A stretch of DNA of 25,026 nucleotides from a virus. Below are positions 2,790 to 23,603 of this stretch, in pieces. The stretch covers positions 852 through 25,877 of IMG/VR virus record IMGVR_UViG_3300037847_005585. One strand, written 5' to 3'. Both the position numbers and the translations under genes were made by a program. The first letter of the stretch is position 1; every line of letters begins with the position of its first letter. The notes under the pieces were generated by a model. That model was not told the DNA's origin. It did not search any database and was given only the letters and a program-made list of their open reading frames with translations.

Positions 2790-4025
2790 CTAAAACGGTT
2801 TTTTAGCTACTTCAAGTCCTTTATCTGTAATGTGTTCCAAGTGAATCCTTTGATGGCTTATAATCCCTCTTCTAGATTTTACAATTTTTGCAAATACGCT
2901 ATTATAAGTATACGTATCCATATCACGCCATCCCTTGACCTTTTTAGACACCCCATCAAAAGAGACAAGACTGGGGATCATGCTTGGTCTAAATATTGAG
3001 GTCATACAATGCGCTACATTTTTTATTACTTGCGCCCATTGCGCATCTTTATATCTTGGCTCTAATTGCCACCCATGGCGCACATGGTCGTTAATCGTGA
3101 CTTGGCTAGGAACCAAAAGTAAAACGTTCAATTCTTTTGCGATCTGTTTAAGTATTTTTGTTACATAATTTAGTTCCAAGGTTCTAGAATTGAATCGACC
3201 TTTTGCGTAAACCTCTTGTATGTAATCAATGACAACAAAATCCAAGCCATTTTCTTGCTTTATTTTTCTACAACATCTTTTTATTTCATCTATGTCATCA
3301 ACGCTATCTACGATTAGCATATTATCACAATACTCTAATGTATTAGCCGCTAATTGAGATGCCGTATTCACATCATAATCTTCCATCTGAAACCATAAAC
3401 CCTTATATCCAGCCTCCAACAATTTTACGGATATAAAATTACAAAATTGAGTTTTACCATGTCCAGAGTCTGCTAAAACCACATTTATGTCGCCTTTGTG
3501 CATTCCAACATTTTCATACAAAATATTATCAATTGTATTTATGTTAGTAAGCAGTTTTTCTTTTATTGGGTTCTCTTTTTCCCTGACAAATATTTCTGTT
3601 GGAGTCAGGGCGACAACATCGCTTGCATCGTCAGTCTGTTGTGATAACTTGTCGATCATCAATATTAGATCATCTGCAGTCACATCTTCAGACATAGACT
3701 TTTGGAACACCTCAGACACGGACCTTCTTAGCACCTTTTTATCTCGATCTTCTTTCAGTATATGAAGATAATCTTTGATCTGTGATTCGCTAACCAGAGC
3801 ATTCATCTGTAACTCTAGTAGTCTATCTTGAGTGTATAGATCTAACTTTGATGTTATTGTTGCTTCGTTAAAATTTACACCCTCTGAATGTTGCCTGCAA
3901 CACTCTAAATATAATGTTCTGTTATAATTAAAATAATCTGCATCACTTAGATCGAATATCAGGTTTCTATATTCTCTAGAAAACAGAAGTGTTCCCATTA
4001 AGGAATCTTCAAGTTCTATACTCAT
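2790..4025 (-). CDS. DnaB-type replicative helicase
   Basis: 411 aa RecA-fold helicase expected to unwind the fork as a hexamer. The N-terminal helical domain (residues 1-125) resembles DnaB-N (LEDSLMGTLLFSREY, DYFNYNRTLYLEC). The Walker A loop is ADSGHGKT (185-192), where the first Gly of the standard motif is Ala. The Walker B strand is FVVIDYIQ (263-270), and SQVT (about residues 307-310) may be the sensor region. The typical C-terminal motif before the end is weak, and at 411 aa the protein is slightly shorter than bacterial DnaB. Its start codon overlaps the stop of the winged-helix gene by 4 bases (ATGA), so translation is coupled. The gene sits with the exonuclease and annealing genes in one operon. 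Confidence 0.88.
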   Translation of the reverse strand: MSIELEDSLMGTLLFSREYRNLIFDLSDADYFNYNRTLYLECCRQHSEGVNFNEATITSKLDLYTQDRLLELQMNALVSESQIKDYLHILKEDRDKKVLRRSVSEVFQKSMSEDVTADDLILMIDKLSQQTDDASDVVALTPTEIFVREKENPIKEKLLTNINTIDNILYENVGMHKGDINVVLADSGHGKTQFCNFISVKLLEAGYKGLWFQMEDYDVNTASQLAANTLEYCDNMLIVDSVDDIDEIKRCCRKIKQENGLDFVVIDYIQEVYAKGRFNSRTLELNYVTKILKQIAKELNVLLLVPSQVTINDHVRHGWQLEPRYKDAQWAQVIKNVAHCMTSIFRPSMIPSLVSFDGVSKKVKGWRDMDTYTYNSVFAKIVKSRRGIISHQRIHLEHITDKGLEVAKKPF

Positions 4026-10865: not shown

Positions 10866-11057
10866 ATGTCTTGGCATGAAAAGGAAGATATAAAGTCGGC
10901 AGAGCAAATGTTCTCTGAAATGAAGGTTGTGATAGAGTGTTTACACAGGATACCAAGTATGTCTAGTAAGCTTCCAAATTACATTAACAATAGAATACAG
11001 TCCATTATGGAGTTCACATCTAAAAATGGTTGGGATGAAAAAAAAGAGAGCAAGTGA
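10866..11057 (+). CDS. Small protein upstream of small terminase (63 aa)
   Basis: 63 aa protein, MSWHEKEDIKSAEQMFSEMK, then a helix (VIECLHRIPSMSSKLPNYIN) and a basic tail. The reading frame overlaps the following gene by 23 bases in another frame. No domain is recognised. The ATG at 10866 has an AAGGTG stretch about 6 bases upstream. It may be the first gene of the packaging operon. Confidence 0.5.
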   Translation: MSWHEKEDIKSAEQMFSEMKVVIECLHRIPSMSSKLPNYINNRIQSIMEFTSKNGWDEKKESK

Positions 11058-11604
11058 TTATTCTGATAAAGAGAAACTAGATGTTTTAAGGGATCTAGAT
11101 AAATATGGAAACTTGTCAAAAGTGTCAACAAAATATGGCCTTTCTAGACAGACAATATACAACTGGAAAGATTCTGCAAAACAGTTACAAGAACAGGTTA
11201 TTGAGTTAGATAAAGTAACAAAAAAGAAAAGACATGATCTATTAGATAAAGAAGTTTTAAAAAACATTGGAACATATAAGAACCTTTTATCCACAATAGG
11301 GGATTTAGAAAAGAGAAAAGAGAATCTGTCTGCTAAGGTTGAGTTACTGTTAATGAATGTAGTTGATGCTATAGAAAAACACGAAGATCTAAAAGAGATA
11401 CATCCAAAGGACTTGAGTAAGATGATGAAGGACCTTCATGATGTTCGCAAAGAACTAAGCAATGAGCCAACCATTATTATTGAATATAAAAACAAAATGA
11501 GGGAACAGACCTTACAGGTTCTTCAGGACTTTTTAAATATAGAGCAGCTAAAAGAGTTCGCTCAAAAAATGGAGGCAATAGAAGCTGAGTATGAGTTACT
11601 ATAG
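11035..11604 (+). CDS. terS: Probable small terminase subunit
   Basis: 189 aa protein, ATG at 11035 preferred over 11026. It has an N-terminal helix-turn-helix (YSDKEKLDVLRDLDKYGNLS, then KYGLSRQTIYNWK, residues about 6-44). This is followed by long predicted coiled-coil helices (LQEQVIELDKVTKKK, LSTIGDLEKRKENLSAKVEL) and a C-terminal acidic region. DNA-binding N-terminus plus oligomerising helical middle, placed just before the large terminase, is the layout of TerS, which recognises the packaging site. A perfect DnaA box (TTATCCACA, 11287-11295) lies inside the gene. A transposase-like regulator is the alternative reading. It overlaps the next gene by 14 bases. Confidence 0.65.
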   Translation: MKKKRASDYSDKEKLDVLRDLDKYGNLSKVSTKYGLSRQTIYNWKDSAKQLQEQVIELDKVTKKKRHDLLDKEVLKNIGTYKNLLSTIGDLEKRKENLSAKVELLLMNVVDAIEKHEDLKEIHPKDLSKMMKDLHDVRKELSNEPTIIIEYKNKMREQTLQVLQDFLNIEQLKEFAQKMEAIEAEYELL

Positions 11605-12091: not shown

Positions 12092-12257
12092 ATTTAAATT
12101 ATTTAAGTTCCCTGTATTTAAGACAAACTTTTTCATAAAACATTTAAAGTTCTGGAATAAAGCAAGATTATTTAAATGTGTTAATGTTGTTGCTGGTGGT
12201 CCACAATGCAAGAAACAATGCAAGTTATGTAAAAAGACGTATGGCCCAGAAAGCTAA
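12081..12257 (+). CDS. Cys-rich mini-protein between nuclease and terminase
   Basis: 58 aa protein, basic and aromatic N-terminal half (MSIKFKLFKFPVFKTNFFIK) and a C-terminal Cys cluster (C-x9-C-x3-C-x2-C, in CVNVVAGGPQCKKQCKLC), which could bind one zinc ion. It overlaps the nuclease gene by 11 bases and the terminase ATPase gene by 17. No family is recognised. Open reading over the full 177 bases, the Cys pattern and the packed overlaps support a real gene. The position suggests it could work with the terminase. Confidence 0.5.
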   Translation: MSIKFKLFKFPVFKTNFFIKHLKFWNKARLFKCVNVVAGGPQCKKQCKLCKKTYGPES

Positions 12258-13044
12258 TTGGTCTGACTTACTAGTTAATGTCGTGGGGTATGAGCCTCCA
12301 GCAGACTCAATTGATTTGCGAAACTCTTTTATTGAGAATTGTTTGGCAGATCAAGATGGCAAGAAGCTTACTCAGGCAGACATACATCTGGTTATGCAGC
12401 AAGGTATTTACGATTGGGAGCAGCAGGCATTATCCAAAAGCGCTCGTCTTAATGGCTTGATTCGTGCGCCCTATAATACTGGCAAGTCTCAACAAGTAGC
12501 CATTGGTTTATCGGCATATATGACTACAAGAAAACATGAACTTGAGACATTGATTGTTTCTGCTGATGGTGGTATTTCAGCTAAAAGAATATTGTCTTTG
12601 AGGGCCTTGTTTATGAGTGATATGTATAAGTATTGGTGCAAAGAGCATAACTTCAATCCTGTTGAGTTTGATAGAACTGATACTGGGTCAACCCAGCGAA
12701 TCATTGTTAAAAGTCGCAACAGGACAGGTAACCCCACTTATGAGGCGTATGCAGTATTGACTCAAACCACAGGTCAACGTGCTGGTGTGCTGATTCTTGA
12801 TGATGTGTGCAATGATGAAGATCGTATATCTACTGCTCGTAGAGATACAGTATGGAATAAGGTATCTAACACATGGATCAAGCGTGTTCATGATAAAGGT
12901 ATTGTTTTAAGTGTGTGTACTCCCTATCATCCAAATGATGCTAACAGTAGACTCATGAAGTCTGGCATTTTTAATGTATTGCAAATATCAGTAAAAGAAG
13001 ATAAAACAGGTTATCAAGTAGAAGAATGGAACAATCTAAAGTAA
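12241..13044 (+). CDS. terL: Large terminase, ATPase domain (separate gene)
   Basis: 267 aa protein that is the N-terminal half of a large terminase, the motor that pumps DNA into the head. Walker A is RAPYNTGKS (75-83), Walker B is VLILDD (183-188) and the coupling motif is SVCTPYHPND (224-233), all in the right order and spacing. The gene stops at 13042-13044, exactly in the linker that joins ATPase and nuclease in ordinary terminases. The ATG at 12241 is preferred over a GTG at 12178 because the region between overlaps the Cys-rich gene in another frame. The nuclease half follows as a separate gene at 13367, and the two halves together (528 aa) have the usual length. Confidence 0.85.
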   Translation: MAQKANWSDLLVNVVGYEPPADSIDLRNSFIENCLADQDGKKLTQADIHLVMQQGIYDWEQQALSKSARLNGLIRAPYNTGKSQQVAIGLSAYMTTRKHELETLIVSADGGISAKRILSLRALFMSDMYKYWCKEHNFNPVEFDRTDTGSTQRIIVKSRNRTGNPTYEAYAVLTQTTGQRAGVLILDDVCNDEDRISTARRDTVWNKVSNTWIKRVHDKGIVLSVCTPYHPNDANSRLMKSGIFNVLQISVKEDKTGYQVEEWNNLK

Positions 13045-13370
13045 TCATATATGTAAGATTTAATACAGATTTAGATCAAGAATATGTTGATAACACAAAA
13101 AAAGAGCTGAATAGATTTGTAGATATGATTGGTGCTAAGGTAGTAAATGAATACTGGGAGGTGTTAGATAAAAACACAGAATCTGGTGTAATTGATTATA
13201 TAATAGACGAATGCATGAGAAAGGGCTGCTCAATCCTTACTTATGATTTGGATACTCTTCATGGATATGTTTCTGGAGCCTTTTCAATATTAGATGAGGC
13301 ATTTAAAGATCAAGTTGCTATATTCTTTGTAGATCCAACTAGTTCACTAAAAAGCATATTTCATTTATGA
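13026..13370 (+). CDS. Resolvase-like domain gene inserted between terminase halves
   Basis: 114 aa protein whose pattern fits the N-terminal catalytic fold of serine recombinases: VIIYVRFNTDLDQE (residues 6-19; family A-x-Y-x-R-V-S-T-D), a helical middle, NEYWEVLDKNTESG (41-54; family y-x-d-x-x-S-G), then SILTYDLDTLHGYVSG (family D-R-L-x-R) and VAIFFVDP. The catalytic Ser is replaced by Asn13 and the D-R-L-S-R arginine is absent, so it should not recombine DNA. The C-terminal DNA-binding part is missing. The gene overlaps the ATPase gene by 19 bases and the nuclease gene by 4 (ATGA), so translation is coupled through all three. Family assignment is my inference from motifs. Confidence 0.6.
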   Translation: MEQSKVIIYVRFNTDLDQEYVDNTKKELNRFVDMIGAKVVNEYWEVLDKNTESGVIDYIIDECMRKGCSILTYDLDTLHGYVSGAFSILDEAFKDQVAIFFVDPTSSLKSIFHL

Positions 13371-14152
13371 GAGAGGCTGATAGGGTATGGGAGATACCAT
13401 TATGGGAGACTAACCACAGTAAACAACGACTGCTCCAAGAGGAAGCGATGGACTTTCTATCGTATAAGCTTGGATATGAAATGAGTGAGGAAACAGATGA
13501 TCCTACGAAGAAGGCATACAAACATTTTGATGGATATAATCACTACCCTGACGGCAATCTTACATCTATTGATTACGATAATGGCAGTTCTGTTTGGCTT
13601 TGCGCTGATTTCAACAGGTCTCCTCATTGTTGGGCTTTGCTCCAAGTTAAAAAGGCTCGTAATGGGCTTAGGCAGTACATTGTTTTTGACGAAATCTTCT
13701 CCAAAGAAGCCCTCACCACCGAACAAGCCCTCAAAGCTGTTGAATTACTGAAAAAATGGGATATTTCAAAAGTTTTATTGGCTGGAGACAACACTTCTAA
13801 CCAAAAAAGTGGTAATTATGGTCGTGTAGGCAAAAATGACTGGGATTATGTTAGGGAAGTGCTTAGTCAACACGACATTTCATATAAAAATGAGTTAGAT
13901 ATACAAAATCCTAAAAGAAAAGTGCGTGTAGACAGGGTTAATAACGCAATTTATGCTGGAAAAAATGGAGAAAGACGACTTTTAGTAAATACTAGATGCG
14001 ACCATGTTATAAAAGACTATATGTACTCCATTGTTAATGATAAAGGTGTAAAAATAGACAATGGTGATCGTGGACACATGTCTGATGCAATAGATTATGC
14101 TATTTGGAGGAATGAAAAGGGGTCATCAAGTCCAATGTACGTGCTACGCTAG
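13367..14152 (+). CDS. terL: Large terminase, nuclease domain (separate gene)
   Basis: 261 aa protein that is the C-terminal RNase H-like nuclease half of the large terminase, which cuts the concatemer. It begins within the usual linker after ATPase motifs (IPLWETNHSKQRLL, typical of terminases). Predicted catalytic acids are Asp81 (WLCADFNRSP), Asp141 (LLAGDNTSN) and Asp240/243 (GHMSDAIDYAIW). It starts with ATGA overlap on the resolvase-like gene. Its stop overlaps that of the convergent gene on the other strand by a few bases. Since the ATPase is a separate chain, the motor and nuclease would have to meet as separate subunits. Confidence 0.82.
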   Translation: MREADRVWEIPLWETNHSKQRLLQEEAMDFLSYKLGYEMSEETDDPTKKAYKHFDGYNHYPDGNLTSIDYDNGSSVWLCADFNRSPHCWALLQVKKARNGLRQYIVFDEIFSKEALTTEQALKAVELLKKWDISKVLLAGDNTSNQKSGNYGRVGKNDWDYVREVLSQHDISYKNELDIQNPKRKVRVDRVNNAIYAGKNGERRLLVNTRCDHVIKDYMYSIVNDKGVKIDNGDRGHMSDAIDYAIWRNEKGSSSPMYVLR

Positions 14153-14535
14153 TCTCTTCTGATAGGTTTAGTGCGTTTACCCATTCCTACACGTTTTTTC
14201 TCTCTAATAGCCTCAGATGCTTTGCCTTTTGCTTTTAGTTCCTTCCACGTAACAGGTGTTTCCTTGCTTATTCGAACAGTAGGACGACATTTTTTAATTC
14301 CTTTAAACTTCTTTGACCCACAAGGTGAGCCATCTTGAGTAGTCCATTTTTCTCGCATCCATCGAGCAACACCTCTTTTGGTCGACTTTCTTCCTGTATA
14401 TGTTCCCCCTCTTTTTTTATATTCCTTTACGATCCAAGCTGATGCGTATGCACTAGGGAATATTTTAAACTTGCGCTTAGCCTCTGATTTTACTCGGCTA
14501 TATAAAGATGGATTAGCTGGTTCGTTTTTTGACAT
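14149..14535 (-). CDS. DUF5872-like basic protein
   Basis: 128 aa, very basic. It matches the DUF5872 pattern: NPSLYSRVKSEAKRKFKIFP, SAYASAWIVKEYKKRGGTY, ARWMREKWTTQDGSPCGSKK, CRPTVRISKETPVTWKELK. Homologues that I recall come from algal (Phycodnaviridae-type) viruses and marine phages; the function is unknown, and a DNA-binding or virion role would fit the charge. It is the only minus-strand gene in the packaging and head region. Its start faces the gene at 14622, and the palindrome at 14567-14589 lies between them. Confidence 0.75.
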   Translation of the reverse strand: MSKNEPANPSLYSRVKSEAKRKFKIFPSAYASAWIVKEYKKRGGTYTGRKSTKRGVARWMREKWTTQDGSPCGSKKFKGIKKCRPTVRISKETPVTWKELKAKGKASEAIREKKRVGMGKRTKPIRRD

Positions 14536-14621: not shown

Positions 14622-14897
14622 ATGAAAGATGTTAAAAGACTTAGCGGTGGTCGGATCGAGTACAGAGGTCATACTTATGCTGGATTCAACAAACCCCGCA
14701 GGAGTTGGAGGGACACCAAAAAATTTGTAGTTTTAGCAAAGAAAGGTAATCAAATTAGGGTTATCCATTATGGTGATCCCAATATGCCCATTCGTAAGAA
14801 TGAGCCAGCTCGTAGAAAGTCTTTTAGGGCTAGACATCGTTGTTCAACAGCAAAAGATAAATTTACGGCAAGATATTGGTCGTGCAAAAAATGGTAA
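14622..14897 (+). CDS. Small basic marine-phage protein with YWSCKKW end
   Basis: 91 aa, basic. It begins MKDVKRLSGGRIEYRGHTY, followed by AGFNKPRRSW and FVVLAKKGNQIRVIHYG, and closes RRKSFRARHRCSTAKDKF and TARYWSCKKW. I know this pattern (SGGRIEYRGHTFxGFNKP, SFKARH, YWxxxVKW) from marine phages and related sequences in algal viruses, but no function is assigned. The start at 14622 gives the conserved N-terminus; an upstream frame from 14574 crosses the palindrome. The C-terminal Cys and Arg residues suggest nucleic acid binding. Confidence 0.7.
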   Translation: MKDVKRLSGGRIEYRGHTYAGFNKPRRSWRDTKKFVVLAKKGNQIRVIHYGDPNMPIRKNEPARRKSFRARHRCSTAKDKFTARYWSCKKW

Positions 14898-23010: not shown

Positions 23011-23412
23011 ATGGGAAGAATAACAAAAGTAACTGGAGAATTCATGGGGGTTCGGTTTGAGGTCAAGCCGACCCCTATTCGTTTTGACAAGGTAATGGAT
23101 GAAAGGAGGGATCTGTTACTTGGATGGTATAAAAAAAATCATCCTACTCTACACGAAAAAATAGAGTCTGATGATTATGATGTACAAGATTATACCTTAG
23201 AGGAATTAAATGCTATAAACGCATGGAGATTAGACAAAAAGTTTCGTGCAAAGTATTGTAAGTATACTGCAGAAAAATGCATTAAACTAGACAAAGAGTT
23301 GGAGGACAGCACTTGGGAATCTGATGACTTAGAATTAGGCACGCTTGAGGAAGCGTGGGATTTTTTTACAAACAGGCGACAAGTACCTTCCAATGGAGTC
23401 GGTCTACTTTAG
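23011..23412 (+). CDS. Tail assembly chaperone, G-like
   Basis: 133 aa. Acidic helical protein (LGWYKKNHPTLHEKIESDDY, LEELNAINAWRLDKKFRAKY) placed just before the tape measure, as for lambda gpG. It ends 45 bases after a T-TTT-TTT slippery site (23361-23367). It binds the tape measure during tail assembly and is absent from finished tails in homologous systems. The short form is this 133 aa; a -1 shift gives a longer one (see 23367-23603). Confidence 0.75.
   Translation: MGRITKVTGEFMGVRFEVKPTPIRFDKVMDERRDLLLGWYKKNHPTLHEKIESDDYDVQDYTLEELNAINAWRLDKKFRAKYCKYTAEKCIKLDKELEDSTWESDDLELGTLEEAWDFFTNRRQVPSNGVGLL
23361..23367 (+). other. Slippery heptamer T TTT TTT for -1 frameshift
   Basis: Within the chaperone gene the frame reads GAT TTT TTT ACA, so the heptamer fits X-XXY-YYZ with the two TTT codons in the reading frame. 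The -1 frame downstream is open to 23603. Both tRNAs would re-pair perfectly on TTT. The location near the end of the G-like gene is where lambda-like phages carry this signal. Confidence 0.75.
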
Positions 23413-23603
23413 AGTCATTAGACTTGCTCGCACCTAATGACTTAGTGGTCGAGGTTGGCGGATCGTACAGTTATTACTGTTACGTTCTCGCTGACTTTGA
23501 TCCATTGCGAGCAAAGGAATTTGAAGCCAAGTGTTCGATTGAAGAGGTTACTAAAGCCATAATGGCTAGAGCAGCCTATCATATGCCAAAAGATAAACAT
23601 TAA
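23367..23603 (+). CDS. Frameshift extension (T-like part) of tail assembly chaperone
   Basis: The -1 frame after the slippery site continues 78 codons (YKQATSTFQWSRSTLESLDL to ...AAYHMPKDKH), giving a fusion of about 197 aa. The frame is open well past the G-like stop (58-base overlap from the ATG at 23355). The frame position, the tape-measure gene right after it, and an aromatic and acidic middle (GGSYSYYCYVLADFD) match the GT fusions of siphoviruses. It could also start at the ATG at 23355, but the frameshift is the better explanation. Confidence 0.7.
   Translation, partial: YKQATSTFQWSRSTLESLDLLAPNDLVVEVGGSYSYYCYVLADFDPLRAKEFEAKCSIEEVTKAIMARAAYHMPKDKH
23413..23442 (+). other. Perfect 9-base-pair hairpin downstream of the frameshift site
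   Basis: AGTCATTAG (23413-23421) pairs exactly with CTAATGACT (23434-23442), 12-base loop, directly after the G-like stop. It lies 45 bases past the slippery heptamer, farther than usual for a frameshift stimulator (5-9 bases), and it is inside the T-like frame. It may slow ribosomes or act on mRNA stability. Confidence 0.55.

Follow-up and report, generated by a model that had tools for sequence, protein, structure and literature searches.

Viral packaging motors are regarded as requiring their ATPase and their nuclease on one chain, by which translocation and cutting are coordinated (T4, P22, SPP1). The stretch of DNA analysed here (the window, 25,026 nucleotides of the IMG/VR virus record IMGVR_UViG_3300037847_005585, positions 852 to 25,877) raises the question of how a large terminase can be carried in two genes with a third gene, here called M, lodged between them, and of what that third gene does. 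Three plus-strand ORFs, each in a different frame, make up the terminase locus, and its features are as follows.

11026..11604, plus strand: probable terminase small subunit, an HTH protein, two genes upstream of TerL-N
12241..13044, plus strand: TerL-N, ATPase (motor) half of the large terminase, 267 aa (phrog_38, E=1e-21)
12466..12489, plus strand: Walker A, APYNTGKS; P77, K82 and S83 are conserved alignment columns
12787..12804, plus strand: Walker B, VLILDD; D187 and D188 are invariant in the relatives and in intact Zobellviridae TerL
12910..12933, plus strand: coupling motif, SVCTPYHP; T227, Y229, H230 and P231 are invariant
13026..13370, plus strand: M, 114 aa, modelled as a serine-recombinase catalytic-domain fold
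13026..13044, plus strand: 19-nt overlap between the end of TerL-N (EEWNNLK, then the stop) and the start of M (MEQ..)
13367..14152, plus strand: TerL-C, nuclease half of the large terminase, 261 aa (hhalign to intact TerL)
13367..13370, plus strand: 4-nt overlap ATGA between the stop of M and the start of TerL-C, read from the sequence
13607..13609, plus strand: nuclease acid D81, in ADFNRSP (compare MDFNVSP in LP.2), by alignment
13787..13789, plus strand: nuclease acid D141, in AGDN (compare YPDP in LP.2), by alignment
14084..14086, plus strand: nuclease acid D240, in HMSDA (compare HMTDA in LP.2), by alignment

A GTG at 12178 would lengthen the first ORF, and the relatives favour the ATG at 12241. 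The small-subunit gene is assigned from weak matches (HTH Pfam, E ~1e-4; PHROG terminase small subunit, E=0.015). The original prediction, that a large terminase is split into two genes around an insert which overlaps them by 19 and 4 bases, has been borne out by family, profile and comparative evidence as far as the split is concerned, and both overlaps are confirmed at 13026-13044 and 13367-13370. Directly after TerL-C, within the packaging module and on the opposite strand, lies a DUF5872 gene (14149-14535, minus strand; Pfam E=1.5e-26), and this is followed by a DUF5754/phrog_7595-like gene (14622-14897).

Beyond its match to the PHROG terminase large subunit, TerL-N gave a profile that aligns with the ATPase region of Zobellviridae TerL (hhalign 91-96%), and the Walker A, Walker B and coupling motifs of the TerL ATPase align with those of intact TerL; these motifs had been predicted to lie in the first gene, where APYNTGKS, LILDD and TPYHP are indeed found. 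TerL-C gave no direct Pfam or PHROG match above the cut-off, and its profile matches both the Terminase_6C part of the intact TerL of Vibrio phage LP.2 and the TerL of phage hairong (hhalign 94% in each case). The LP.2 protein (intact, 407 aa) scores for both Pfam Terminase_6N and Terminase_6C, and alignment to it places the three acids of an RNase-H-like nuclease in the third gene, as had been foreseen, at D81, D141 and D240. The AF2 model of TerL-C was poor (pLDDT 44) and was left out of the evidence. In all loci the terminase occupies two stop-closed frames rather than encoding the one polypeptide that defines TerL. Because purifying selection on both halves is strong, with a median dN/dS of ~0.025 for TerL-N and of 0.04-0.06 for TerL-C, the separate chains are both taken to be functional. 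In one relative, L149, the Walker A of TerL-N reads APYNTDKS instead of APYNTGKS, a change of the P-loop glycine to aspartate in an otherwise conserved ATPase.

New here is the possibility that the two halves descend from two different terminase lineages and together form a chimera, as their profile matches suggest. Profiles of TerL-N match the terminases of Zobellviridae, Page and Lactococcus 50902 and gave no match to those of LP.2, SSU5, hairong or Vibrio 1.240.O; profiles of TerL-C match these latter four and gave no match to the set matched by TerL-N, and none among the eleven intact terminases tested matches both halves. The chimera is offered as a hypothesis because identity is low (~25%), and it would be the expected outcome if a split gene permits the independent replacement of its halves.

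When IMG/VR was scanned with TerL-N, M and TerL-C and with diverged versions of them, ~80 related sequence groups were found, apparently members of a single genus-like clade whose genomes measure ~36 kb, the largest records being 34-36 kb long. M is present in 73 of the 73 groups that reach the junction, the remaining groups stopping at a contig edge, and in none of these 73 is the terminase unsplit. A search for a contiguous-terL pattern across the whole of IMG/VR gave no match, while the same pattern with split spacing, used as a positive control, recovered 166 of the 278 loci that were fetched; likewise, no close relative with an empty, uninterrupted site was found in IMG/VR. The order TerL-N, M, TerL-C recurs in 57 full-length loci from many metagenomes, and the earlier view that the insert is stably kept agrees both with its presence in every junction-reaching group and with the purifying selection acting on it. 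The frame of M is open in the relatives, and the other two forward frames average 11.5 stops over M. A tblastn search with M gave no match in annotated or named phages, and a scan of genome contigs with TerL-C gave none either. One record, IMGVR_UViG_3300046169_000084 (35269 bases), carries TerL-N at one contig end and M with TerL-C at the other (L064/L102), and is a circularly permuted, near-complete genome that is broken within the terminase locus.

In relatives, this junction also houses a gene of a kind typical of homing genes. In 26 related groups a GIY-YIG gene (MUG113/T5orf172) lies between TerL-N and M, at the place that corresponds to the 19-nt overlap of 13026..13044, and the spacing from TerL-N to M in these loci is ~380-500 nt; the window itself has no GIY-YIG gene at the junction. 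All five of the junction genes tested exceed the Pfam cut-offs, and most of those read have a zinc-finger-like N-terminus. Loci L020 and L141, in which M is 97-100% identical, differ cleanly by the presence or absence of the GIY-YIG gene, and in this pair imperfect copies of the 19-nt overlap sequence stand on either side of the gene. Loci that lack the GIY-YIG gene retain M just as consistently. T5orf172 genes have terminase genes as their most frequent neighbours, in 35% of neighbourhoods (PMC10448857), and the starts of the free-standing homing genes of T4 usually overlap the upstream gene (PMC2988022). In one respect the locus has the make-up of a gene-in-pieces, in that an essential gene is interrupted and both of its parts are open and constrained. 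In one relative (L071, ~3005-3150) the 3' end of TerL-N is apparently tandem-duplicated (VKEDKTGYLVEEWN.. twice) immediately upstream of the GIY-YIG gene, which alters the TerL-N tail, and in Pseudomonas phage PA11 (Zobellviridae; L274, 3570-4055) an annotated endonuclease gene lies between terL and the portal gene.

M itself is best described as a protein of predicted serine-recombinase fold that has lost the active site. The window copy matches Pfam PF00239 (Resolvase) with E=3.5e-4, under the gathering score, and a Resolvase match was obtained for 22 of 30 M relatives; a PDB profile match to the serine recombinase 3g13 was also found (E=0.003). A Foldseek check on 13026-13370, for which the AF2 model has a pLDDT of 86.4, retrieved 3g13, 3bvp and 6dgc (probability 1.00, TM 0.6-0.7), and the fold matches in BFVD include serine recombinases of viruses as well as poxvirus OPG061. 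The serine-recombinase catalytic-domain fold is thus supported by the modelled structure, and the Pfam, profile and Foldseek results agree with the original prediction of a serine-recombinase-like insert without the catalytic set. At the position of the catalytic serine, the 52 unique M sequences carry glycine (23), threonine (13), serine (13) or asparagine (3), so that the asparagine noted earlier is right for this copy but is a lineage variant, the relatives having glycine, threonine or serine. The arginines of the D-R-L-S-R motif are replaced in 52 of 52 sequences, by T and by E, Q, G and others, and M ends after the catalytic core, at 114-119 aa, without a DNA-binding domain.

While the recombinase residues are gone, others are fixed: Y9, Q18, W44, E45, S53, C63, Y73, H79, G84 and F101 are invariant in the 52 sequences and R11 is present in 50, a pattern that looks like a remodelled, non-recombinase site. 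The dN/dS of M is ~0.08-0.30, as opposed to 0.02-0.06 in the terminase halves, and M is therefore constrained as a protein, several times less than either half. Since this value is well below 1 and internal residues are invariant, the protein sequence of M matters, and not just its open frame. No second copy of M was found in 20 records, and none of the fetched loci has M without TerL; a candidate for M elsewhere, in L088, is a 28% match that looks like chance. A link of M to defence was rejected, since PADLOC gave a single match, a weak one (E=0.004), for one of three. Across complete loci the overlap between the stop of M and the start of TerL-C is mostly 4 nt (14-17 nt in a few), and the ATGA overlap is likely to couple the translation of TerL-C to that of M.

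Alleles of M have also been exchanged among these phages. L014 and L142 are near-identical phages whose M alleles are only ~60% alike in DNA, and L142 and L106 have near-identical M genes in diverged backgrounds; more broadly, many phages with terminase halves ~85-97% identical share 37-55% identity in M. Trees of TerL-N, M and TerL-C mutually reject one another, with conflict between supported splits of 9/17 to 14/24 across the borders of M. In the controls, such conflict was 9/25 and 9/19 for the portal gene, which is uninterrupted, when its two halves were compared, and 11/17 and 12/19 between the two parts of TerL-N. Recombination is pervasive across the whole phage group, and because the controls show it everywhere, the exchange of M is no proof of self-driven homing. 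The idea of M as a freely moving gene was rejected accordingly: the swapping is real, but the control shows recombination to be pervasive in these genomes.

Several readings would make the split more apparent than real. An assembly or sequencing error that hides one continuous frame has a next to negligible probability, as 57 full loci, drawn from many metagenomes, have a whole extra gene between the halves and all three genes are constrained; the order is shared across independent contigs, by which an assembly error is ruled out. That the interval between TerL-N and TerL-C is a removed intron or intein, yielding one continuous terminase, would have precedents, since a spliced terL with a neighbouring T5orf172 gene is known in phage ICP1 (PMC10448857) and the terL of Campylobacter phage IBB_35 is interrupted by one intein and one intron (PMC3322345). 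This reading is very improbable and was rejected: neither the window nor ten relatives gave an Rfam intron, the interval has no excess of RNA structure (z=0.11), the coding sequence runs into the flank on either side, and synonymous divergence is no lower over M than over the flanks, while an intein is ruled out because the three different frames are closed by stops. A fusion by frameshifting was also set aside, in that inspection by eye, as distinct from a systematic scan, revealed no slippery heptamer at the overlaps of the window, and TerL-N and M lie ~380-500 nt apart where the GIY-YIG gene is present.

The reading that is preferred, with a probability of roughly 65%, is that the terminase is a gene-in-pieces at a homing-endonuclease site and that M is a domesticated pseudo-recombinase. 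The terL of the clade would be permanently in pieces, with the break in the inter-domain linker, at a site that also serves homing-type endonuclease genes, and the ATPase and nuclease chains, produced from one cistron, would act in trans as a motor/nuclease of two chains. M, having lost catalysis and its DNA-binding part, would be a locus-specific, domesticated remnant of mobile DNA, with a present-day function at the protein level, while the reading of M would also deliver ribosomes to the start of TerL-C; it would act beside the terminase, in assembly or regulation, and not as a recombinase. That the split goes back to mobile DNA invading the gene, that translation is coupled, that the halves reassemble in trans and that M acts beside the terminase are inferences. 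Against this reading, IMG/VR gave no unsplit relative in which the invasion step would be visible, and the pervasive recombination makes the exchange of M nothing special. A function of M is favoured by the constraint on it, by its patch of invariant residues and by its confinement to this locus. Of the two origins proposed for the insert, a domesticated mobile gene or a third terminase subunit, the former is thus favoured, and the GIY-YIG gene at the junction in 26 related groups adds support to it.

Two other readings accept the split and differ in what M is for. M may be the remnant of a hostage-taking element, such that translation of TerL-C needs ribosomes finishing M, with a selfish or accessory role linked to homing in addition. 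Such a remnant would account for the ATGA overlap in nearly all loci, for the fact that no ribosome-binding site is evident before TerL-C in the sequences inspected, and for the homing-type gene at the junction, the relaxed rate of M and the local exchange tracts around it; it is nonetheless a tentative and rather unlikely explanation, as a dN/dS well under 1 and invariant internal residues speak against it, as does the equal retention of M where the GIY-YIG gene is absent. It is likewise unlikely, if worth serious thought, that M is an integral third subunit which holds or gates the ATPase and nuclease chains in place of the covalent linker. The gene lies exactly at the inter-domain linker, is universal and confined to the terminase locus, and has a fixed order, overlaps and purifying selection, and its invariant patch could be an interface. 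However, diverged M alleles (~50% alike) swap behind almost identical halves, which is mildly against a tight fit, and a tight three-chain interface is usually intolerant of alleles as divergent as these (37-55%; ~60% in DNA for L014 and L142). The stronger form, in which a three-chain terminase combines the ATPase and nuclease of two lineages and needs M to couple translocation to cutting, is doubtful.

On the preferred reading of a gene-in-pieces with a domesticated M, a clade-wide natural split of terL would permit a direct test of the one-chain requirement and would offer a domain-swappable terminase, and a dead recombinase kept by a virus at a homing site would be a concrete case of mobile DNA becoming a resident gene. 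Elsewhere in the window, the tail region has two overlapping ORFs (23011-23603) that resemble a tail assembly chaperone pair expressed via -1 frameshifting, a T TTT TTT A stretch being located near 23360, and a small minus-strand protein (1463-1834) is, by eye, a candidate DNA-binding protein of the DnaA domain IV type that lacks the remaining parts of DnaA.

In the open-access literature searched, no description of this split-terminase arrangement was found, while its parts have precedents. The intact terminases compared are single proteins of 407-536 aa, those of Zobellviridae (GP100, CVT22, PA11) matching the ATPase half and those of LP.2, hairong and SSU5 matching the nuclease half. The terL of IBB_35 (PMC3322345) and that of Vibrio phage ICP1 (PMC10448857) are likewise targeted by homing-type elements, with T5orf172 genes near terL in ICP1 (PMC10448857); in these phages, however, introns or inteins give one terminase, whereas none is detectable here and two proteins are expected. 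The predicted fold of M is like that of the serine recombinases 3g13, the TP901-1 integrase 3bvp and the IS607-type TnpA 6dgc, from which M differs in lacking the conserved serine, the D-R-L-S-R arginines and the DNA-binding domain. An inactivated serine recombinase has also been described in poxviruses, F16/OPG061 (PMC4304020), which resembles M as a dead recombinase retained by a virus and is among its fold matches, but is unlinked to a packaging enzyme and about twice as long. In Aeromonas phage Aeh1, as cited in PMC3322345, nrdA exists as genes-in-pieces via insertion of mobE (Friedrich et al., 2007), and on that account a homing-type gene likewise cuts an essential enzyme into two frames with both parts in use, the difference being that the enzyme here is the terminase, the constant gene is a pseudo-recombinase, and the endonuclease gene is of the GIY-YIG type and optional.
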